Shown one piece after another: positions 6,491 through 41,764 of a stretch of 41,764 nucleotides of DNA; positions within the stretch are counted from its first letter, which is position 1, and every line of letters begins with the position of its first letter. A model generated the notes under the pieces. That model did not search any database. It saw nothing but the letters and a program-made list of their open reading frames with translations, and was not told the DNA's origin. The translations under genes and the position numbers were made by a program. This stretch comes from a virus. Location of the stretch: the IMG/VR virus record IMGVR_UViG_3300046777_002295, positions 1-41,764 of that record; one strand, given 5' to 3'.

Positions 6491-6518
6491 GATTGTGAAT
6501 ACGGTCACAATCTTTTTT
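6491..6518 (+). terminator. rho-independent terminator-like hairpin
   Basis: GATTGTGA and TCACAATC pair across a 6-nt loop and are followed by TTTTTT on the plus strand. No gene ends upstream on this strand, so it would serve a short RNA or shield the array from read-through. Its core also fits the TGTGA-N6-TCACA dyad. Confidence 0.45.
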
Positions 6519-6561
6519 AGAACGAATGTTCTATTTGTGATAGGTTTCACAATTAGAACGC

Positions 6562-6596
6562 ATGTGCTATGCGAACGCATGTTCTATTTGTGAAAT
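6562..6596. repeat. 35-bp direct repeat, copy 1
   Basis: This segment is identical to 6653-6687, 91 bp away. It spans half of a degenerate GAAC dyad, a complete GAAC-N4-GTTC dyad and the left part of a TGTGA dyad, so a composite operator module was duplicated. Confidence 0.9.
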
Positions 6597-6652
6597 ACAT
6601 CACATGTGAAATGTTTCACAAAGAGTAAGTGTACAGATAACACATAGTACAA

Positions 6653-6687
6653 ATGTGCTATGCGAACGCATGTTCTATTTGTGAAAT
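6653..6687. repeat. 35-bp direct repeat, copy 2
   Basis: It is identical to 6562-6596. The copies diverge immediately after GTGAAAT, where one dyad continues ACATCACA and the other GTTTCACA. Confidence 0.9.
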
Positions 6688-6860
6688 GTTTCACAGATGA
6701 TTGTGAAAAAAATCACATGTGATAAATATCACAATTAAACTGGTCAGTGTAATCGTGAAATCTTTCACATGTGAAATGTTTCACAATTAGAACGCATGTT
6801 CTAGTAGAACAAATGTTTCACCATGAACCCCTATAGAGTCAGTAGACGTCGACCAGAGTG

Positions 6861-6909
6861 GTAGACTATTACAAATCCCATAGGCCATGTAGACGATTAT
6901 AAATCCCAT
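6861..6909. repeat. 21-bp direct repeat pair
   Basis: The 21-mers at 6861-6881 and 6889-6909 begin GTAGAC and end AAATCCCAT; they differ at two positions. The start-to-start period is 28 bp. They fall in the only part of the array free of TGTGA dyads (6786-6943). Confidence 0.85.
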
Positions 6910-7054
6910 CGAATCAGTATACTTATATGAACATTTGTTCTATTGTGAAATACATCACACCATACCCGACCGAATCACTCATGTATGTTGTGAAATGATT
7001 CACAATGTGATTTGTGAAATGATTCACACAAAGATTACAATTCGATGACATGCC

Positions 7055-7083
7055 TTGACAGGCTTTTGGATTTGTGTTATTCG
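7055..7083 (+). promoter_or_regulatory. weak candidate early promoter
   Basis: TTGACA (7055-7060) is followed after 17 bases by TATTCG (7078-7083), a poor -10. It lies between TGTGA dyads and points at the rightward block. The -35 box is itself inside a GCC-TTGACA-GGC inverted repeat. Confidence 0.3.
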
Positions 7084-7271
7084 CACGTGCGCATACACAC
7101 ACACACCCCTGACATTGTGATACATTTCACAATACCCATCACATCGTGAAATAATTCACATGAAACCCTACTGAATCAGTCGAAGATTACAGTTTCATTA
7201 CAATGCTATTTTGGGGTTGCATAGTTATTCTATACATGCTACCATAGCCCCCATGATGAATATCGGGTATG

Positions 7272-7283
7272 CCCCCTAGGGGG
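7272..7283. repeat. GC-rich palindrome
   Basis: CCCCCTAGGGGG is a perfect 12-bp palindrome at the start of a segment (7260-7560) with many runs of 5-9 C or G. A partial copy, CCCCCTAGGG, lies at about 7542. Confidence 0.8.
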
Positions 7284-7577
7284 TGCACCCCCCCGCTCTC
7301 CGGCGGTGCGATTCATAGCACGTACATTCACAATTCACCCCGAAATGAGTGCACTAGGTGCACCGTCACCCCCTACGAAATCGGGGGGGTGGCATTGCGA
7401 TTCGTGATAGCCAGTCTAGACCGGAAACCGACGGGGGGGGGTATACCCCCCCGATGATAATTACGGCAGATGTGAGAAGTGGTGTGTAGTGAATGACGGG
7501 TAAGGGGGTGAATTATGCACGGAAACCAACGGGGAGTAATCCCCCTAGGGTGTACCTTAACAATTCGATATATGACG

Positions 7578-7609
7578 ATTCACACCCCCGATATACGGGG
7601 GGTGTGAAT
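7578..7609. repeat. GC-rich inverted repeat before the first early gene
   Basis: ATTCACACCCCC pairs with GGGGGGTGTGAAT around a short A/T loop. It has the same build as the hairpins between later early genes (arms TTCAC-C-run and G-run-GTGAA), but lacks a parS core. The first parS lies 18 bp downstream. Confidence 0.8.
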
Positions 7610-7627
7610 TGTGTACACACCCTATCA

Positions 7628-7643
7628 TGTTTCACGTGAAACA
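7628..7643. promoter_or_regulatory. parS: parS site 1
   Basis: TGTTTCACGTGAAACA, the canonical bacterial ParB-binding site, is present without a mismatch. The palindrome extends to 18 bp (7627-7644). It lies 17 bases before the first rightward gene. Confidence 0.85.
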
Positions 7644-7660
7644 TAGACGAGGGGTATAGC

Positions 7661-7876
7661 ATGATGAATTACATTCGGCGTGGCAACATTCACGGGGTAT
7701 GGGGTATGCAATCGAATGCCAGTGAATGGGTGGCTGGTGTGTTGACGTTACCCCTATGGGTGGTTGCGTTAGTAATTCGGGTATTGTACCGATGTATGGT
7801 TGGTGTGTTGCGTTTCATCATTGCGGTCGTTGCGGGTATGTGTTATATGGCTCATGACATCGTAACGGGTAAGTAA
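7661..7876 (+). CDS. small membrane protein
   Basis: A 71-residue protein starts behind GAGGGG (six bases spacing). The region from about 24 to 62 is a nearly continuous hydrophobic stretch broken by R-V-L-Y-R-C, suggesting two membrane spans with a short basic turn. It is the first gene of the rightward block and is flanked by parS sites 1 and 2. No family is recognised; a membrane-targeted early protein such as a host-takeover or superinfection factor is possible. Confidence 0.6.
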   Translation: MMNYIRRGNIHGVWGMQSNASEWVAGVLTLPLWVVALVIRVLYRCMVGVLRFIIAVVAGMCYMAHDIVTGK

Positions 7877-7908
7877 TAAATAATAATTATTGCGGTGTGT
7901 ACACAATT

Positions 7909-7951
7909 CACCCCCCCCGTATATGTTTCACGTGAAACATTCGGGGGGGTG
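7909..7951. repeat. GC-rich inverted repeat centred on parS 2
   Basis: A C-run (CACCCCCCCC) and a G-run (GGGGGGGTG) flank parS 2, giving an almost loopless palindrome of about 43 bp. It fills the gap between two early genes. As RNA it would be a long hairpin; it is not followed by a T-tract. Confidence 0.8.
7924..7939. promoter_or_regulatory. parS: parS site 2
   Basis: The sequence TGTTTCACGTGAAACA is a perfect copy, between the 7661 and 7998 genes. Confidence 0.85.
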
Positions 7952-7997
7952 TGAAATCGGTGGGTAATTCGGGGGTATGTATGAAAGGCATAACACA

Positions 7998-8870
7998 ATG
8001 CAACACACACACACCCCCCACGAGCTGGCTATGATGCTAGTGAAATTGTACGAATTGGTGCATGGTCGGAAACCATCAGAAATCACCCGTGATGCTATCA
8101 ATAGTGTTATGGGTCGTTTCGTTGCATCACGTAAGGATTTCGGTGCATCATCACTATTTCAGCGTTTCGGTGAATCCCGCAACATTTCGTCATTCGGTGA
8201 ATGGGTATTGACACACTACGCTGGTCTAGTTGACGATGCACGGGAAAAATACAACGAATCACTAGACGAATTAGAATCAGCGTACCAAACCGCCAGTGGT
8301 AACGTTTCCGACCATCGGTTGGATGATGGCGTTGACGATGCACGTATAGCTGAATTATTTCACCCCGATATTGAGTCTGAAATAGACGAAAAAATAGGGG
8401 GTAGCACGTGGTTTCGATGTATCGGGGGGATTCACGGTATAGACGTGATTTCTGACGATGACAGCGACATCACGACGGAAATATATGACGGTGTGTATAG
8501 TGCTACGAATGACGTTGAAACCGCAATAGGAAACCACCGTCAGGCCGTGAATGATTACAAATTACGGGTGGAGGCCATTCGTAACGTACAATCACAATAC
8601 AAATCATACAAGTACGCCATTTCGATGGCGATACATGACGATTTACCGAAATTACTACAAATTATCATATCGGGGGATGAAATCTCCGAAACCGATGATT
8701 TGTGTAAGGGGTATATTGACGGGTATACAATCGAAACCGAATGGGATGACGATAATGGGGTATACGTACCATACATTACGGGTATAGACTCGGCAGAAAT
8801 GTATGAAATCATGTACCCCGATGACTGGTCGAATTATTGTATTTATGTTGACGCAGTAACGAATAAGTAA
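7998..8870 (+). CDS. hypothetical early protein, acidic
   Basis: The product is 290 residues if translation starts at ATG 7998, nine bases after GAAAGG; an in-frame ATG at 7977 is possible but has no spaced ribosome-binding site. It begins M-Q-H-T-H-T-P-H-E and is rich in Asp and Glu through the middle, with repeated D-D-A and S-D-D-D words. No motif or family is recognised. Early position and acidity are compatible with a DNA-mimic or host-protein-binding role, which is speculation. Confidence 0.65.
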   Translation: MQHTHTPHELAMMLVKLYELVHGRKPSEITRDAINSVMGRFVASRKDFGASSLFQRFGESRNISSFGEWVLTHYAGLVDDAREKYNESLDELESAYQTASGNVSDHRLDDGVDDARIAELFHPDIESEIDEKIGGSTWFRCIGGIHGIDVISDDDSDITTEIYDGVYSATNDVETAIGNHRQAVNDYKLRVEAIRNVQSQYKSYKYAISMAIHDDLPKLLQIIISGDEISETDDLCKGYIDGYTIETEWDDDNGVYVPYITGIDSAEMYEIMYPDDWSNYCIYVDAVTNK

Positions 8871-8901
8871 TAATAATCACCCCCCCGAATTACCCCCCGA
8901 T

Positions 8902-8950
8902 TTCACCCCCCTCCGAATATGTTTCACGTGAAACATTCGGGGGGGTGAAT
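8902..8950. repeat. GC-rich inverted repeat centred on parS 3
   Basis: TTCACCCCCCTCCGAATA and TTCGGGGGGGTGAA flank parS 3, forming an approximately 49-bp palindrome with small mismatches. It is the same module as at 7909, 9545 and 10718. Confidence 0.8.
8920..8935. promoter_or_regulatory. parS: parS site 3
   Basis: TGTTTCACGTGAAACA is again perfect, in the gap between the 7998 and 8986 genes. Confidence 0.85.
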
Positions 8951-8985
8951 ATAGCGGAGGGTATACTCCCTATAGGGGGTATCAC

Positions 8986-9519
8986 ATGCAATTTATGCAA
9001 CATGATGCTGAATCATTCGACCAATTCGATACTATGCGATTTCGTGCATTGCAGTCAACATGTCGCAATATGTACCGATTACAATCACGGGTAAGTAATT
9101 CATTACATGATTTGTGGATGGGTAATAGGGGGTGTACGTCATCCCCCGTTAATACCATACTCAACTGGGTGTATGACTATTCACCAACTAGTAACGGGGT
9201 ATGTTGGTCGTTGGATTTCAACAAATCACGATATAACTGCTTACAGACACAGGCACAATTTCACGTGCTATTTACGGGGGGCATTTTAACATGCACCCAA
9301 AATGGTGGGGTATATCGTAGGGTATACAATGGGGATAATTCACTATATGTATTCAGTCGTGATGAATGCAAGCTGATTATGTATACTGTTTTACACCATT
9401 TTATACAATCGGAGCTGATACACATATACAGCAATCATACCGCCATATCACGGTCTATGGTAGAAATGATGCATAGTAATGCTACTACAGCTCGGCTTAT
9501 TTATAACACATACAAGTAA
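8986..9519 (+). CDS. hypothetical early protein
   Basis: The 177-residue protein starts behind AGGGGG with six bases spacing. It contains scattered Cys residues and a C-terminal helical region, but no recognisable domain. It is bounded on both sides by parS-centred hairpins (sites 3 and 4). Confidence 0.6.
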   Translation: MQFMQHDAESFDQFDTMRFRALQSTCRNMYRLQSRVSNSLHDLWMGNRGCTSSPVNTILNWVYDYSPTSNGVCWSLDFNKSRYNCLQTQAQFHVLFTGGILTCTQNGGVYRRVYNGDNSLYVFSRDECKLIMYTVLHHFIQSELIHIYSNHTAISRSMVEMMHSNATTARLIYNTYK

Positions 9520-9544
9520 TAATCACGGGTATACCCTCCCCTAT

Positions 9545-9590
9545 ATTCACCCCCCCGAATGTTTCACGTGAAACATTCGGGGGTATGAAT
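9545..9590. repeat. GC-rich inverted repeat centred on parS 4
   Basis: ATTCACCCCCCCGAA and TTCGGGGGTATGAAT flank parS 4. The A/T-G-run-parS-C-run-A/T order is the same as in the other copies. Confidence 0.8.
9560..9575. promoter_or_regulatory. parS: parS site 4
   Basis: The 16-mer TGTTTCACGTGAAACA is perfect, between the 8986 and 9624 genes. Confidence 0.85.
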
Positions 9591-9623
9591 ACAGGGGGGA
9601 AATCATACCGAATGGAGCTGATT

Positions 9624-9863
9624 ATGCGAGATGTAAATACACACCCTATGGTCGTAACGCTGAATAAATACTCTGGCTATTATCGGGGGGTACTGATTCA
9701 GCTGAATGTTGACATCCCTACATATCGCACGAATATGCACTGGGTACATACTGCTATTGACAAGGTGAAGCGTACCATTGTACGAAATCGCCGAGAGGGT
9801 GAGCGTATGGCATTGGAGTTACAAATCCAACTGTCGCACCTCATCAAAGTAACTGCTGAATAA
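9624..9863 (+). CDS. hypothetical early protein, basic
   Basis: A 79-residue protein is predicted from ATG 9624, which has GGAG six bases upstream; in-frame ATGs at 9585 and 9612 are less well placed. It contains a basic cluster (K-V-K-R-T-I-V-R-N-R-R) in a predicted helix, which could bind nucleic acid. No family is recognised. Confidence 0.55.
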   Translation: MRDVNTHPMVVTLNKYSGYYRGVLIQLNVDIPTYRTNMHWVHTAIDKVKRTIVRNRREGERMALELQIQLSHLIKVTAE

Positions 9864-9892
9864 TTGACGATTTCCCCCCTGTATTCATCCCC

Positions 9893-9910
9893 CCGTATCG
9901 CATGATACGG
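9893..9910 (+). terminator. intergenic hairpin without parS
   Basis: CCGTATC and GATACGG pair around GCAT between the 9624 and 9948 genes. No T-tract follows. It replaces the parS hairpin in this gap, so hairpins rather than parS alone may be the constant feature of the early gaps. Confidence 0.45.
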
Positions 9911-9947
9911 AGTGATGATTGTATAAGTGTATTGTATTGGAGGGATT

Positions 9948-10715
9948 ATGCAGACTGATGCAAAGCAGACCGAATCGGTCAAAGTTGAAACGGGTATCCC
10001 CCTGACTGCGGTCAAGCAGTTTATTGACGAGCTAGGGATTCACTACCCCACCTTGTGCCTAAAGCAGGAAGCTGGGTATACTCGGGGGGAAATGCCACTG
10101 GAAGCTGGGTATAACGGTCTGATTTATTGGGATGATTTCCGCAAAGCTCACGATAACACAGACTGCGCCAGCTTGGTGCATGAGTGGTCAGATTTACATG
10201 ACGCAGTTATGAAACGGGTAACGAAGGCCTACAATATCCAGCAACTTCCCCAGCTGGTATTCGGCACTGCGGTCGAATGGGTAGCAGACCGTTTCCCCCA
10301 TGCCTGCAAGTGTGAGAATTGTAGTGCTGTGCCATTTCTATATGATTCAGCACTATACCGAGCGTATGATTATTATAGTAAGACGATTGTACAGCTCAAT
10401 CCCAAGCAGGGGGATTTATACCCAGTGGTCGACCGTGAAACGATGAAAGCAGTAAATATGACTGCGCTCATCCCAGTTTCACATAGACGGTCAGAAGCAA
10501 TGCACAAGCTATACATGCTGATTTGTACTATTTCCAATGCACAAATCAAAGCTGATATGCTAGACGCTCTGACTGCGGAGGTGGGTGCATCTCGGGAAAT
10601 CATTACAAAAATACTGGCTTACTTGGATAATGGTATAGACGTTTCTACCCAGTTTCCAAGTTACGAGTGGATTGTAATGCGAAATGTATCGGCGAGTATG
10701 ATTTCCGAATTGTAG
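9948..10715 (+). CDS. hypothetical early protein with HxCxCxxC motif
   Basis: The protein is 255 residues from ATG 9948 (GGAGGG, three bases before the ATG region). A cysteine/histidine cluster, F-P-H-A-C-K-C-E-N-C, lies near residues 122-131 and may bind zinc. The same cluster (F-A-H-S-C-M-C-D-D-C) occurs in the 13338 gene, so the two look like distant paralogues. No enzyme motif is visible. Confidence 0.65.
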   Translation: MQTDAKQTESVKVETGIPLTAVKQFIDELGIHYPTLCLKQEAGYTRGEMPLEAGYNGLIYWDDFRKAHDNTDCASLVHEWSDLHDAVMKRVTKAYNIQQLPQLVFGTAVEWVADRFPHACKCENCSAVPFLYDSALYRAYDYYSKTIVQLNPKQGDLYPVVDRETMKAVNMTALIPVSHRRSEAMHKLYMLICTISNAQIKADMLDALTAEVGASREIITKILAYLDNGIDVSTQFPSYEWIVMRNVSASMISEL

Positions 10716-10717
10716 CT

Positions 10718-10763
10718 GAATCACCCCCCCCGAATGTTTCACGTGAAACATTCGGGGGGATTC
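10718..10763. repeat. GC-rich inverted repeat centred on parS 5
   Basis: GAATCACCCCCCCCGAA and TTCGGGGGGATTC flank parS 5, forming a 46-bp palindrome directly upstream of the ribosome-binding site of the next gene. Confidence 0.8.
10735..10750. promoter_or_regulatory. parS: parS site 5
   Basis: TGTTTCACGTGAAACA without mismatch, between the 9948 and 10778 genes. It is the last parS copy; the next gap holds a hairpin of different sequence. Confidence 0.85.
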
Positions 10764-10777
10764 TATGGAGGTGTATG

Positions 10778-10999
10778 ATGGGAAATAATGAAGCATGTAA
10801 TGCGACATGTGAGCATACGATGACAGTATTTACTTCATCCAATGCGAAGTGGTCGGAGTGTAGCAAGTGTGATTGTATTGTACTGATTCATATTGACTGT
10901 TACGAGTGTGGCGCAGTCATTGTGATAAGTGAGGGTGAGCATGTATACCAAGATGGTAAATATTATCATTATCATTGTACTGACGGGGGGATTGTATGA
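10778..10999 (+). CDS. small Cys-rich protein, zinc-ribbon-like
   Basis: The 73-residue protein starts at ATG 10778, five bases after GGAGGT. It has C-N-A-T-C, C-S-K-C-D-C and C-Y-E-C clusters followed by H-Y-H-C, typical of a compact treble-clef or zinc-ribbon fold. It may bind DNA, RNA or protein. Its stop overlaps the next start by ATGA. Confidence 0.6.
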   Translation: MGNNEACNATCEHTMTVFTSSNAKWSECSKCDCIVLIHIDCYECGAVIVISEGEHVYQDGKYYHYHCTDGGIV

Positions 11000-11277
11000 A
11001 ACATACTGAACGGGTGCGGGAAATCAAAGCTCAAGCTGACCGCTTGGGGTATGAATTGCACCAGCTAGGAAGTGGGAAGTGGGGTGTCACTTTTACGGGT
11101 GCCAACATTTACGCTCTAAAGGTGACTGTTGGCACATTGGATAAAGTGGAGGGATTTCTAGACGGGGTAGAGTGGATTATTTCCGATTCCGAGAAGTGGA
11201 CGAGATTACACTGGGCAGGCATAGTTGACTCTGCACGAAGCCGAGTTATTGTAGAAACCGAAGGGGAAGGTGAATAG
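10996..11277 (+). CDS. hypothetical early protein
   Basis: This 93-residue protein starts with a basic helix (E-R-V-R-E-I-K-A-Q-A-D-R-L-G-Y), followed by a beta-rich part with G-K-W-G-V-T-F and T-L-D-K-V-E-G-F-L. Small phage proteins with this helix-then-sheet layout are common, but none has a firm function I can name. It overlaps its upstream neighbour by four bases, implying translational coupling. Confidence 0.55.
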   Translation: MKHTERVREIKAQADRLGYELHQLGSGKWGVTFTGANIYALKVTVGTLDKVEGFLDGVEWIISDSEKWTRLHWAGIVDSARSRVIVETEGEGE

Positions 11278-11278
11278 C

Positions 11279-11980
11279 ATGAAGTTACAATTTCGTCATG
11301 ATACACAATACACACCGAATGAATCAGAAGCTGTCGAATTATTGACTCGTAACTATTACGCTGTATTCGATTGCGCCAAGATAGCACAGCTCGAGCGTAT
11401 GTCACCATGTCAACTGGTGGATATTATCACCCATGACATTCACTCATACGTATTATTTTCAGATTATGAAGCAGGCTTGTTATCATATAATTACCCCACA
11501 AAAGACGTGAGTCATATTATGAATCTATATGTAGATGTGCATAGACTCCACCACGAAGAGCTTGTGCGCCATTATCGTAATGAGTCTGCGGTAGATGATG
11601 ATGCGAAGCGTAATGAATACAAGTATTTTATGATGCTCCACGAGCAGGATGAAAGCGAGCTGTCATATCAGCGTACATCACTACGCAAAAAAGTAGGGGA
11701 AATGGCTGACACCCTCACTGCACATTGTGAGAATACTGTGGTATATCAGTCTACACACACTATAGAGGGGGGTATGTTTTTAGGTGAATACAATAGGCAA
11801 TATGAAAGATTGAGTCTATTGCAGTACAAGTATGCAGTCAGTCAGCTTCGTATGATTATGTTGAGTGAATTACGCAGTGGTGCGGGTGATTTACAAAGCC
11901 AGCTGGCCTTGCGTAAATCTATTCAAGAGTATGCTGACAAGCTTTGTGGGTATGTATCGAAATACCCTTTTTGGAAGTAA
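11279..11980 (+). CDS. hypothetical early protein
   Basis: The 233-residue, mostly helical protein starts at ATG 11279 after GGAAGGTG. It carries the segment S-E-L-S-Y-Q-R-T-S-L-R-K-K-V-G-E-M, which recurs in altered form in the 13848 gene product (S-E-L-A-Y-R-R-N-A-L-G-S-K-V-G-H-I). No domain is recognised. Confidence 0.6.
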   Translation: MKLQFRHDTQYTPNESEAVELLTRNYYAVFDCAKIAQLERMSPCQLVDIITHDIHSYVLFSDYEAGLLSYNYPTKDVSHIMNLYVDVHRLHHEELVRHYRNESAVDDDAKRNEYKYFMMLHEQDESELSYQRTSLRKKVGEMADTLTAHCENTVVYQSTHTIEGGMFLGEYNRQYERLSLLQYKYAVSQLRMIMLSELRSGAGDLQSQLALRKSIQEYADKLCGYVSKYPFWK

Positions 11981-12395: not shown

Positions 12396-12878
12396 ATGAC
12401 AAAGAAAAGTAAGACTACCCCATACATGGTAGAGCATAGTTGGCATATCACCAAGAAAGATAATGCTAACGTGACCAATATCGGCACATTATACTCATAT
12501 ATCAGCACCTATGTAGAGCGTGATGAATTGCAGTTAATTCATGACAAGTTTATGAAGAAACTGCGTAAGATAGGCTTTGATAAATCAGCATACGATACAC
12601 AACTGATTACAAAGCTGTATGTGCAGAAGGTGTATACATGGCTGTACAATTCACACCCACAGACATCAAAACTGTTTTATTGGGATTCATCCCGTAATGA
12701 AGAGGTGACTGGTGTAGAGCATATGTATCGGGTGACAGCACTGCATGGCGCAGAAGGCCAGCAGTCATTGTACGAGGTGATTGTGTACGCAGACAGTATC
12801 GAGAATGTAAGCCTGCCCAAATACCATGCAGGCAGTATTGTGAGTATTTGTTTATTGCATGACATGGAGGTGAAGTGA
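12396..12878 (+). CDS. hypothetical early protein
   Basis: The 160-residue protein starts behind GGAGGG. The first half is basic and helical (K-K-L-R-K-I-G-F-D-K-S), the second half beta-rich. The segment K-K-x-G-F-D-K-S also occurs in the 17153 gene product (G-K-K-G-F-D-K-S-S), so the pair may share a short module. No function is recognised. Confidence 0.6.
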   Translation: MTKKSKTTPYMVEHSWHITKKDNANVTNIGTLYSYISTYVERDELQLIHDKFMKKLRKIGFDKSAYDTQLITKLYVQKVYTWLYNSHPQTSKLFYWDSSRNEEVTGVEHMYRVTALHGAEGQQSLYEVIVYADSIENVSLPKYHAGSIVSICLLHDMEVK

Positions 12879-17509: not shown

Positions 17510-17636
17510 GAGTTTCCGTATATCGGTCGAAATTGACCGTATGATGCACGAATTGTCAATCAAACTGAATGTAAGCAAAGGAGAAGTATTGCGACATGCC
17601 ATCACAACGCTCTACGAAAAACACTTCAAGCAATAA
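17493..17636 (+). CDS. ribbon-helix-helix DNA-binding protein
   Basis: A 47-residue protein from ATG 17493 (GGAG six bases upstream). The strand S-F-R-I-S-V-E-I is followed by two helices, with S-K-G-E-V-L-R-H at the usual position of the second-helix N-cap. This is a minimal CopG/Arc-type dimer subunit, a likely repressor. Two further in-frame ATGs lie just upstream. It overlaps the 17596 gene and may bind the hub or local hairpins. Confidence 0.65.
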   Translation: MLQRIKSFRISVEIDRMMHELSIKLNVSKGEVLRHAITTLYEKHFKQ

Positions 17637-17922
17637 TCCAACGGTACTTATGAGTACCGCACTGCCACCAGCACTGTATAAAGTGGTGTACGGACGTTCG
17701 GTATCGCAGATGATAAGCGTATCAGACATTATGCGAACATCATTAGACAAGTGGCTTGATGAAGGTGCGCCAAAGTACGCTGTGGCAGATGAGAAGTTTA
17801 AGCATCATGTAGGTGCATACATTCCCGAAGATTTGTATATTCGTCTGCGTAATCTTGCCAAGCGACGTGGTATGTCTATGTCGTTGTGTCTGCGAATGGC
17901 TATTGCATATTGCAATCAGTAA
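17596..17922 (+). CDS. tandem ribbon-helix-helix protein
   Basis: The 108-residue protein appears to contain two RHH units: residues about 18-52 (T-A-L-P-P-A-L-Y-K followed by S-V-S-D-I-M-R-T-S-L) and about 72-106 (V-G-A-Y-I-P-E-D-L-Y followed by S-M-S-L-C-L-R-M-A-I). The second is a good match; the first is less clear. Two units in one chain would give a pseudo-dimer, or a tetravalent dimer. It overlaps the single-unit RHH gene by 41 bp. It is a likely regulator of phage genes. Confidence 0.6.
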   Translation: MPSQRSTKNTSSNNPTVLMSTALPPALYKVVYGRSVSQMISVSDIMRTSLDKWLDEGAPKYAVADEKFKHHVGAYIPEDLYIRLRNLAKRRGMSMSLCLRMAIAYCNQ

Positions 17923-39356: not shown

Positions 39357-39693
39357 CTCCTGTTGAGATGTCGATGATGTAGTCACGTTTAATCTCCTGT
39401 TCGATAACACGGCGACCATAAATATGGGGGAAACGTCGCTCTAACTTCCAAGCGGCCGCCTGCCATACTCCCGATGATGCGGCTTGGTCAATAACATGTA
39501 GCCATCGAAGTGTTGCTTGAGATTCTGCTAATTCTACCTGCTCACGAAACTCTGGATATTGTTCCATCCAATCATAGTAAGTGCGTGTGGCAATTCCAGC
39601 ATAGCCACACGCATGAATGATTGTTGCCCCTTGACCAATCGCCATTAAAAATCGTTTTACCCTGTCAGGCGTATATTTATTTACTAAAGCCAT
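39295..39693 (-). CDS. terS: terminase small subunit
   Basis: A 132-residue protein with an N-terminal helix-turn-helix (V-K-R-F-L-M-A-I, then Y-A-G-I-A-T-R-T-Y-Y-D-W) that binds the packaging site. A helical oligomerisation part follows, with W-K-L-E-R-R-F-P-H. It overlaps terL and the ParB-like gene. It recruits the large subunit and selects phage DNA. Confidence 0.85.
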   Translation of the reverse strand: MALVNKYTPDRVKRFLMAIGQGATIIHACGYAGIATRTYYDWMEQYPEFREQVELAESQATLRWLHVIDQAASSGVWQAAAWKLERRFPHIYGRRVIEQEIKRDYIIDISTGDDNHSQTLEINEAPTKLLEE

Positions 39694-40244
39694 TTCTGGT
39701 TTCCTTTCACCTTAAGATTCCTGCCTTTTAATTCATGAATCAATTCGTCATATTCTTCATATGACATACACTCTACCATTACAATATACTTTTTATCTGA
39801 TTCTGACAATCCACCATCAACATCAGCTTCCATTGGGTCTTCAATCTTCATTTCAATCAATTCTTGCTCAAACAATTTTTTGAGTACCTCATTGGTAGTT
39901 TCAATGTCTTGAAGCAAGTCTTTATACAAGTCCGCATCATTGACCGCATAGGTAGATGATGGGTCAAATGTTGCCAGTACCAGTTTTTCTTCTTCTTCTG
40001 ACAATTTTACATAGGTAATAGGAACAGTCTGATTGTTTCGCATTGCCAGTGAAACACGTAAATGTCCATCAATAACATGGCCAGTAGTTACATTGACAAT
40101 CACATTTTGCACAATACCAACATCACTCATCACTGCATTCAGAATATCCTGTTGCATTTTAGGATGAATGCGATAGTTTGATGGATTAGCCAACAACTGG
40201 TCAGCATGTTCCTCTCCATATCCCACAATACGATTGTTATACAT
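39684..40244 (-). CDS. ParB/sulfiredoxin-fold domain protein
   Basis: A 186-residue protein from ATG 40244 (AAGAGG upstream). Residues about 15-95 match the ParB N-terminal domain: N-P-S-N-Y-R-I-H-P near 20-28 and G-H-V-I-D-G-H-L-R near 55-63, the CTP/nucleotide-binding loop region. There is no following helix-turn-helix of the parS-binding type, and the C-terminus is acidic. Such proteins near terminase and methyltransferase genes are common in phages. Because the genome also carries parS sites, a link is worth testing, but direct binding is not expected. Confidence 0.75.
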   Translation of the reverse strand: MYNNRIVGYGEEHADQLLANPSNYRIHPKMQQDILNAVMSDVGIVQNVIVNVTTGHVIDGHLRVSLAMRNNQTVPITYVKLSEEEEKLVLATFDPSSTYAVNDADLYKDLLQDIETTNEVLKKLFEQELIEMKIEDPMEADVDGGLSESDKKYIVMVECMSYEEYDELIHELKGRNLKVKGNQKWL

Positions 40245-40533
40245 TATCATCCTCTTGGTTTTGCATGTTGTAAATACGATGAATAACCGAAGAAATCAAT
40301 GCCTTATCATGGTTTGGATAATTATTGGCATCTACAGATACTTTTTGTACATACCACAAGTTTTTTGCTTGTACATATGTAATATCCCATACAAAATCAA
40401 GTTTGACACTCAATACAAGTGTTGGTATAGAAGTATTACTATCAAGTGTGAAACTAATAGCAACAATCATAGCAAGATACTTGTCAATTAAAGCATCAAA
40501 TGTTACTGGTGTAGTGTCTATATTGATGTTCAT
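40237..40533 (-). CDS. hypothetical protein
   Basis: A 98-residue protein starting at ATG 40533, inside the methyltransferase B stop (TAATG), behind GGGAGG. No family is recognised. Its first 11 codons and leader are repeated between the two methyltransferase genes (180-220), showing that the duplication unit ended inside this gene. It overlaps the ParB-like gene by eight bases. Confidence 0.65.
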   Translation of the reverse strand: MNINIDTTPVTFDALIDKYLAMIVAISFTLDSNTSIPTLVLSVKLDFVWDITYVQAKNLWYVQKVSVDANNYPNHDKALISSVIHRIYNMQNQEDDNV

Positions 40534-41764
40534 TATTCCTCCCGTATAAAGTCTTTTGACATCCAATGACGAATACGTTTTTCAGCAATATCTACATACT
40601 CCTGATTCAACTCAATACCAATAAATTGTACTTTTTCTAACATAGCCGCACATCCCGTGCTACCACTTCCCATAAACGGGTCAAGTACCACACCGTTTGG
40701 TGGCGTAACGAGGCGAACGAGGTAGCGCATGAGCGTGATGGGCTTGACCGTTGGGTGGTGGTTGGCACGTTCGATTGGTCGCAGTTTGTATGCTACATTT
40801 CGTTCATCTTGACCTGCATCACGTCCTTTAATCGGAGCAACTTCCATTTCATCCAGCCCCGCTTCCCGCTCTGCCTTCGACGCCTTCGCCACGTAGAAAA
40901 AGCGTGATGCGCCGCCGGAGTCGGAGTAGCCACCAAAATTATCAACATTCATTTGATAGTTATTAAGCGTCATTTTGTTTCCTACTGATTTCCCTGCTTT
41001 TTTGCGAATTGATGCCACCGAGGTACTATTCCCACTCTGCTCGTCCAGCATCTGCGCCGCCTCCTCATCAAAGATGACGTTGGCGGGCCAGCGGCCGATG
41101 GGCGATGCAGAGGCTAATTGGTTTATCCCGCCATCTGCGTGTTCGTAATAGTGCATTGTTACGCCGTTAAACTTTGCTGTTGTTCGTGTAGTGCGCTTCT
41201 CTGGCTCATTGTGCGTAATCCTGCACCCGTCAATGTTCAGCGCACCGCATCCCCACGTCAGCACATTGTCGGCCACCGTGCCGGACAGTGGCTTCCGTGC
41301 AAGGACGGCGGGCTCGTTGGCGGGCTTGAGCGCAGTGCCAAAGCCGTGCCATGCTTTGGCGGCGTCGGTGACGGGTATATCACTGTCATGTTCGTGATAG
41401 CCCTGTTGTCGTGCTTTGGTTAACCATGGTCTTTCGTCTAACTCATTAGATATGCCCTTGCCTGCTGTTGAGTGTGGAGTTATTGGCGTTTTTATTTTTT
41501 CTCGCTCCGCCCCTGCCTGCTTATCAATCGCCTTGCTCACGTCAAGGCTTTTCGGGAATCCCGAGCCATATATCCATTGAATACAATCCCGTATCTCAAA
41601 GCCCGCATCCTCGATAGCGCAGGTCATGCGGTGATATGTTCGAGTGCCACCAAAGGCGATGAGGTGTCCACCTGGTTTTAATACACGCAGGCACTCTTCC
41701 CAAAGAGATTGGTCGTAGGCAATACCTGATGAATCCCACTTTTTACCCATAAACCCTAGCTCGT
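40533..41764 (-). CDS. DNA methyltransferase B, main part (start at 164 if circular)
   Basis: The frame is open to the window end and holds 410 of 440 expected codons. It has the SAM motif P-F-M-G-S-G-S-T-G near the C-terminus and the same flanks as copy A (last 50 residues and the M-G-K-K-W-D-S-S region identical). The middle differs and its DNA is visibly richer in G and C than that of copy A or the surrounding genes, as expected for a recombined target-recognition region. Beta-class N6-A or N4-C methylation is likely. Confidence 0.85.
   Translation of the reverse strand, partial: ELGFMGKKWDSSGIAYDQSLWEECLRVLKPGGHLIAFGGTRTYHRMTCAIEDAGFEIRDCIQWIYGSGFPKSLDVSKAIDKQAGAEREKIKTPITPHSTAGKGISNELDERPWLTKARQQGYHEHDSDIPVTDAAKAWHGFGTALKPANEPAVLARKPLSGTVADNVLTWGCGALNIDGCRITHNEPEKRTTRTTAKFNGVTMHYYEHADGGINQLASASPIGRWPANVIFDEEAAQMLDEQSGNSTSVASIRKKAGKSVGNKMTLNNYQMNVDNFGGYSDSGGASRFFYVAKASKAEREAGLDEMEVAPIKGRDAGQDERNVAYKLRPIERANHHPTVKPITLMRYLVRLVTPPNGVVLDPFMGSGSTGCAAMLEKVQFIGIELNQEYVDIAEKRIRHWMSKDFIREE
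41692..41764. repeat. 73-bp terminal repeat, identical to 1-73
   Basis: Bases 41692-41764 equal 1-73 and also equal 1341-1413 within methyltransferase A. The identity continues between 1-172 and 1341-1512 with few changes. It may be a circular-assembly overlap or a false join through the duplicated gene. Confidence 0.95.

Follow-up and report, generated by a model that had tools for sequence, protein, structure and literature searches.

Five perfect parS sites among the early genes of a phage without detected partition genes suggest that it probably borrows host ParB

The use of host ParB by a phage is best known from phi29. In that phage, binding of Spo0A suspends the lytic cycle, and this enables entrapment of the genome in the spore by Spo0J (Meijer et al. 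2005, as cited in PMC9437464). A virulent phage that recruits host ParB therefore has a precedent, and the locus described here would be a variant of a known mechanism. In the phi29 genome, scanned as a positive control, TGTTTCACGTGGAACA occurs four times; read on the other strand, as TGTTCCACGTGAAACA, it fits the 16-bp palindrome of bacterial chromosomal parS, TGTTNCACGTGAAACA. The four sites represent the Bacillus form of parS, with one mismatch each. No published phage with a chromosomal parS besides phi29 was found in the open-licence literature.

The DNA analyzed here, referred to as the window, is a 41,764-nucleotide viral stretch (IMG/VR record IMGVR_UViG_3300046777_002295). Its ends share a 73-bp repeat, and a methyltransferase gene across the joined ends reads uninterrupted. 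The assembly is therefore probably circular and the genome, of 41.69 kb, complete. Two paralogous DNA methyltransferases lie in tandem (40533-41750 joined to 1-163, and 212-1504) where the relative L134 has one; the gene spanning the assembly's joined ends is the first of the pair. Besides these two methyltransferases, terminase, portal, capsid, endolysin, ThyX, and dCTP deaminase are encoded, as is a replication set of O-like and DnaC-like proteins and RusA. Pfam profile searches of the genome gave no match to ParB_N (PF02195) or to a ParA-type ATPase (PF13614), and no tyrosine or serine recombinase (PF00589 and PF00239; integrase, resolvase) was detected in it. A ParABS cassette, with its own parA and parB beside parS, was thus not detected in the window. 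Nor was a repressor or plasmid-replication gene recognized in the genome; a non-lytic state is therefore only putative, which weighs against the partition reading favored below.

A scan of the full window returned five copies of TGTTTCACGTGAAACA, which is the published parS consensus (PMC10197239), and all five are exact, also to the TGTTNCACGTGAAACA palindrome (Table 1). An earlier note on this DNA had reported the five copies, their positions, and their identity with canonical chromosomal parS, and the rescan reproduces each of these points. The 18-mer ATGTTTCACGTGAAACAT is common to all copies, and no further match with three or fewer mismatches is present elsewhere in the window. The array was also said to be beyond chance. 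Dinucleotide shuffles bear this out, since they gave a mean of 0.54 matches at three or fewer mismatches and none of the 100 shuffles reached five. Placement was judged against the plausible early genes at 7661-7876, 7977-8870, 8986-9519, 9585-9863, 9927-10715, and 10778-10999; the fifth of these has no homologues in phage records or viral contigs. All five sites fall outside these genes and are intergenic as claimed, though some lie within short mechanical ORFs. The description of one site per early-gene gap fits only in part: copies 2 to 5 occupy four of the five gaps after the first early gene, but copy 1 is in the leader and the gap at 9864-9926 has none. It is highly likely that the five 16-mers are true ParB sites.

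Table 1. Positions of the sites, repeats, and genes discussed, in coordinates of the window
Feature	Coordinates	Strand	Remarks
CRP-type palindromes TGTGAN6TCACA (12)	6494..7131	.	Upstream of early genes; expected 0.17, maximum 2 in 100 simulations
LexA/SOS-type palindromes GAACN4GTTC (five)	6520..6940	.	Interleaved with CRP-type boxes, steps mostly 15-16 bp; expected 0.63
Promoter-like TTGACA-17-TATTCG	7055..7083	+	Conserved in L134; direct sequence reading
Promoter-like TTGCAT-17-TACCAT	7217..7245	+	L134 version TTGCAT-17-TACTAT; direct sequence reading
Left arm, bracket of gene 7661-7876	7591..7621	.	Partner 7894-7924, 97% complementary
parS copy 1	7628..7643	.	Leader, 18 bp 5′ of first early gene; without C/G arms; exact match
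Early genes	7661..11980	+	Without recognizable families
Left arm, bracket of gene 7977-8870	7912..7975	.	Partner 8882-8945, 78% complementary ungapped, 91% over 55 columns gapped
parS copy 2	7924..7939	.	Between genes 7661-7876 and 7977-8870; exact match
Left arm, bracket of gene 8986-9519	8919..8966	.	Partner 9529-9576, 98% complementary
parS copy 3	8920..8935	.	Between genes 7977-8870 and 8986-9519; exact match
parS copy 4	9560..9575	.	Between genes 8986-9519 and 9585-9863; center of long palindrome 9538-9597; exact match
Left arm, bracket of gene 9585-9863	9575..9604	.	Partner 9869-9898, 93% complementary
parS copy 5	10735..10750	.	Between genes 9927-10715 and 10778-10999; exact match
HTH-less ParB-fold protein	39684..40250	-	188 aa; adjoins terminase and DNA methyltransferase

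Further analysis of the early region showed a feature that is absent from the earlier note. Four of the five parS copies sit within C-rich/G-rich palindromic arms that make strong hairpins, and inverted repeats of 25 to 64 nt, specific to each gene, enclose the four leading early genes of the window and the five leading ones of L134. The brackets (7591-9898 in the window, 12590-15846 in L134) are near-perfect, with sequences that differ per gene and per phage, and the window as a whole has no repeats of this kind outside 6581-10759. The arm at 9575..9604 extends beyond the ATG listed for its gene (9585), for which 9624 is an alternative. Each phage has two genes across which successive parS sites are linked by pairing, the right flank of the one being complementary to the left flank of the other, with scores of 28 to 30 compared to a null maximum of 11. 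Transcripts of the bracketed genes would have complementary 5′ and 3′ ends. Rfam microRNA models placed at 9534-9601 scored far below their gathering scores and were dismissed as chance matches to a near-perfect hairpin. Different hairpins stand in the gaps of the relative L146, whose early region (6600-9600) is saturated with CTGTGC and AGGCGCGCCT hairpins within and between genes, and the early region of another relative, L147 (1-3150), is saturated in the same manner with GTTGCCG/CGGCAAC motifs. The repeated palindrome might thus be a gap hairpin, serving as a terminator, RNA-processing element, or recombination linker, with an incidental likeness to parS.

No T-run as in an intrinsic terminator adjoins any of the four parS hairpins. 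Several observations make the hairpin account quite improbable. First, copy 1 has no arms, and brackets occur both with and without parS, so that core and stems are separable. Second, the 16-mer recurs in unrelated phages without C/G-armed stems, and the chance that a random 16-bp palindrome would be parS is about 1 in 65,000. Finally, a comparison with L134 separates the two elements. Its terminase and endolysin are 92% and 83% identical to those of the window and the two genomes are collinear through the end of the leader, but past the leader no early protein of the window finds a match in L134. Three exact parS sites, at 12571, 13578, and 14016, stand ahead of the first three early genes of L134, in arms that share no sequence with those of the window, and across both phages all eight cores agree at every one of 18 bp, without any compensatory change. 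The unrelated stems suggest that selection acts to retain the parS core itself, and eight identical cores within them point to sequence-specific protein-DNA recognition and not to an RNA hairpin. A search of related phages, which the earlier note had proposed, thus recovered an array of three such sites in L134. The more distant relatives (G005, G007, and L146-L175) have no parS, so the trait appears limited to the clade of the window and L134, and this absence counts against recruitment of host ParB as the explanation.

If the core is read by a protein, that protein could be the phage's own, since a ParB-like fold protein (39684-40250) and an RHH protein (17596-17922) are both encoded. The former is ParB-like by PHROG profile (phrog_620, E 1.1e-8), and a DGHLR motif lies within its region of ParB fold. 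Foldseek gave weak matches to the N-domains of ParB, Noc, and PadC, and the AlphaFold model is weak (pLDDT 61), so the fold assignment rests mainly on the profile match. However, the protein has no recognized HTH region, and its homologues, at 44 to 52% identity, are conserved in relatives without parS. We judge it to be a methyltransferase-associated ParB-fold protein and not a parS reader. RHH proteins are not known to read the parS 16-mer. A phage-encoded reader is therefore very unlikely. The earlier note had seen no ParA and no parS-binding ParB and had suggested profile searches of all phage proteins; these agree with it, this HTH-less protein being the only ParB-like one found.

The 16-mer is not confined to this clade. 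A scan of IMG/VR found it in at least 120 viral stretches with at least 146 sites, and among the matches listed 74 of 146 sites were outside ORFs compared to a background of 12%. At least 17 stretches had two or more sites; ParB_N was found in none of the 14 multi-site records tested among the matches listed, many of which are fragments. Also among the matches listed, several other lineages of environmental phages have multiple parS sites and no detected ParB. For instance, L139, L140, and L141 have three to five copies together with a terminase, and the L067/L194 group has two sites 147 bp apart, a terminase, and a DNA polymerase. L119 has five 14-mer cores and a different terminase, with one of the five outside an ORF by crude ORF calls. 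The sequence GAATGTTTCACGTGAAACATTC stands in near-identical context in L067, L194, L197, L198, L200, L202, L204, L207-L210, L214, L215, and L218, several of which have a second parS 137 to 173 bp away. Small phage contigs (L213, L142, and L054) have parS in gene gaps, singly or in closely spaced pairs. L142, L213, and L074 are phi29-like contigs with a protein-primed-type DNA polymerase and, in two of the three, a connector or capsid; the sites of the first two are in gene gaps. In L074, an 11.7-kb contig whose DNA polymerase is of phi29 type, exact parS sites at 132 and 11579 lie one near each terminus, within inverted terminal repeats.

Such sites could act as a decoy. Five per genome would become hundreds after replication, and replicated phage DNA might then titrate host ParB, disturbing chromosome segregation or releasing ParB-controlled functions. 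This is very unlikely, however. Two to five sites per phage is a modest number, a sponge needs no regular placement between genes, and added parS sites gain little because ParB spreads from any site.

Two arrays that the earlier note did not describe, as it did not describe the gene-specific brackets, precede the early genes. The CRP-type and LexA-type palindromes (6494-7131) are packed, often at steps of 15 to 16 bp. The equivalent region of L134 has seven and two of them, respectively, and the array is absent in the distant relatives. We take TGTGAN6TCACA and GAACN4GTTC to match the CRP/GlxR-type and Gram-positive LexA-type consensus. The palindromes are putative sites of host CRP-like and LexA-like regulators, although they may instead bind a phage regulator or be iterons for the O-like protein.

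The strongest rival to partition is that ParB at the five sites mainly regulates early transcription, with spreading clamps that repress or pace the early operon in the manner of KorB. In both phages, whose early genes differ, the sites precede early-gene starts by no more than about 75 bp and lie downstream of conserved promoter-like motifs. Their spread over 3.1 kb of early gaps, and not in a compact centromere, argues against partition and also fits transcriptional control. KorB is known to switch from a sliding clamp to a long-range repressor (PMC11790492), and Pseudomonas aeruginosa ParB represses genes adjoining parS3 and parS4 (PMC7022226). On the other hand, no promoter is evident at each parS, and the four phi29 sites are not at annotated early promoters. 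Chromosomal ParB usually silences its neighbors only mildly. Regulation as the main role is therefore unlikely, though it could operate together with segregation.

Loading of host ParB is the best reading of the sites, based on the core kept in a diverged relative, its recurrence in unrelated phages, and the phi29 precedent. Among the three roles that the earlier note had offered, genome positioning or segregation is favored and titration is the least likely. In an infected cell that is still uncommitted to lysis, the five sites would serve to load host ParB-CTP clamps, which would then spread across the early region, and ParA, possibly with SMC or polar anchors, would treat the phage circle as an origin-like locus. 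As an episome or a deferred genome, the phage DNA would thereby be given a position and passed on to daughter cells, while host CRP-like and LexA-like regulators on the upstream array would couple early transcription to host state. The sites, their conservation, the operator-like arrays, and the failure to detect an integrase or a phage ParA or parS-binding ParB are observations; that host ParB binds, that partition and deferral take place, and which regulators act upstream are inferred. The combination, in which host chromosomal ParB loads at the five sites and the circle is positioned and inherited while lysis is deferred, with the upstream operators as the link to host state, has in our estimate about an even chance of being right.

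What the host may be is hinted at by the CRP-type and Gram-positive-type LexA boxes, which would suit a Gram-positive or actinobacterial host. Matches of terminase, capsid, helicase loader, endolysin, and ThyX are all below 60% identity and indicate many different hosts. Terminase and endolysin alignments against 84,980 species genomes revealed no prophage relatives, save one short weak match in Gemmatimonadota. More broadly, recruitment of host ParB through chromosomal-type parS could be a widespread, convergent phage strategy. In the present integrase-less phage it would be combined with CRP-like and LexA-like operators, and host machinery alone would see to positioning, inheritance, and induction; we regard this as possible but doubtful. 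If use of host ParB is widespread in unrelated phages without ParABS and integrase, it would be a route for virulent or deferred phages to persist through cell division, and parS would be a signature by which such phages could be recognized from sequence and their hosts guessed. Because the two phages compared share the core but differ in genes and arms, the hypothesis lends itself to a direct test with synthetic sites.

Compared with known systems, the window shares some features with each. P1 and cluster A mycobacteriophages such as RedRock likewise have cis centromere sites for maintenance of the phage genome, but they encode their own ParA and ParB (PMC7157519), neither of which was detected in the window. 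KorB of plasmid RK2 resembles the system proposed here in that a ParB-family clamp loads at DNA sites and gene regulation results; unlike it, KorB is plasmid encoded and has its own operator (PMC11790492). CtrA-site phages, for which lytic deferment has been proposed, and LexA-controlled phages have, like the window, closely packed sites for host regulators in a large intergenic stretch between blocks of genes, but the regulators are others, and the accessible part of the source describes no parS array in them (PMC9437464). In phi29, as in the window, several host-type parS sites lie in the phage genome. Use of host ParB in the manner of phi29 would also call for the lack of a phage-encoded parS-binding ParB or ParA, and none was detected in the window, which has the HTH-less ParB-fold protein only. 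The parS of the window is the general bacterial consensus, which may not be that of its own host. Lytic development of phi29 is tied to a host regulator through early promoters controlled by Spo0A (PMC9437464), and the CRP-like and LexA-like arrays might be the counterpart in the window, as read from sequence. However, phi29, a small podovirus of the protein-primed kind, has its sites among both early and late genes, whereas the phage of the window has a 41.7-kb genome in which five exact sites are confined to the early-gene leader and gaps, together with CRP/LexA-like arrays and bracketing inverted repeats.
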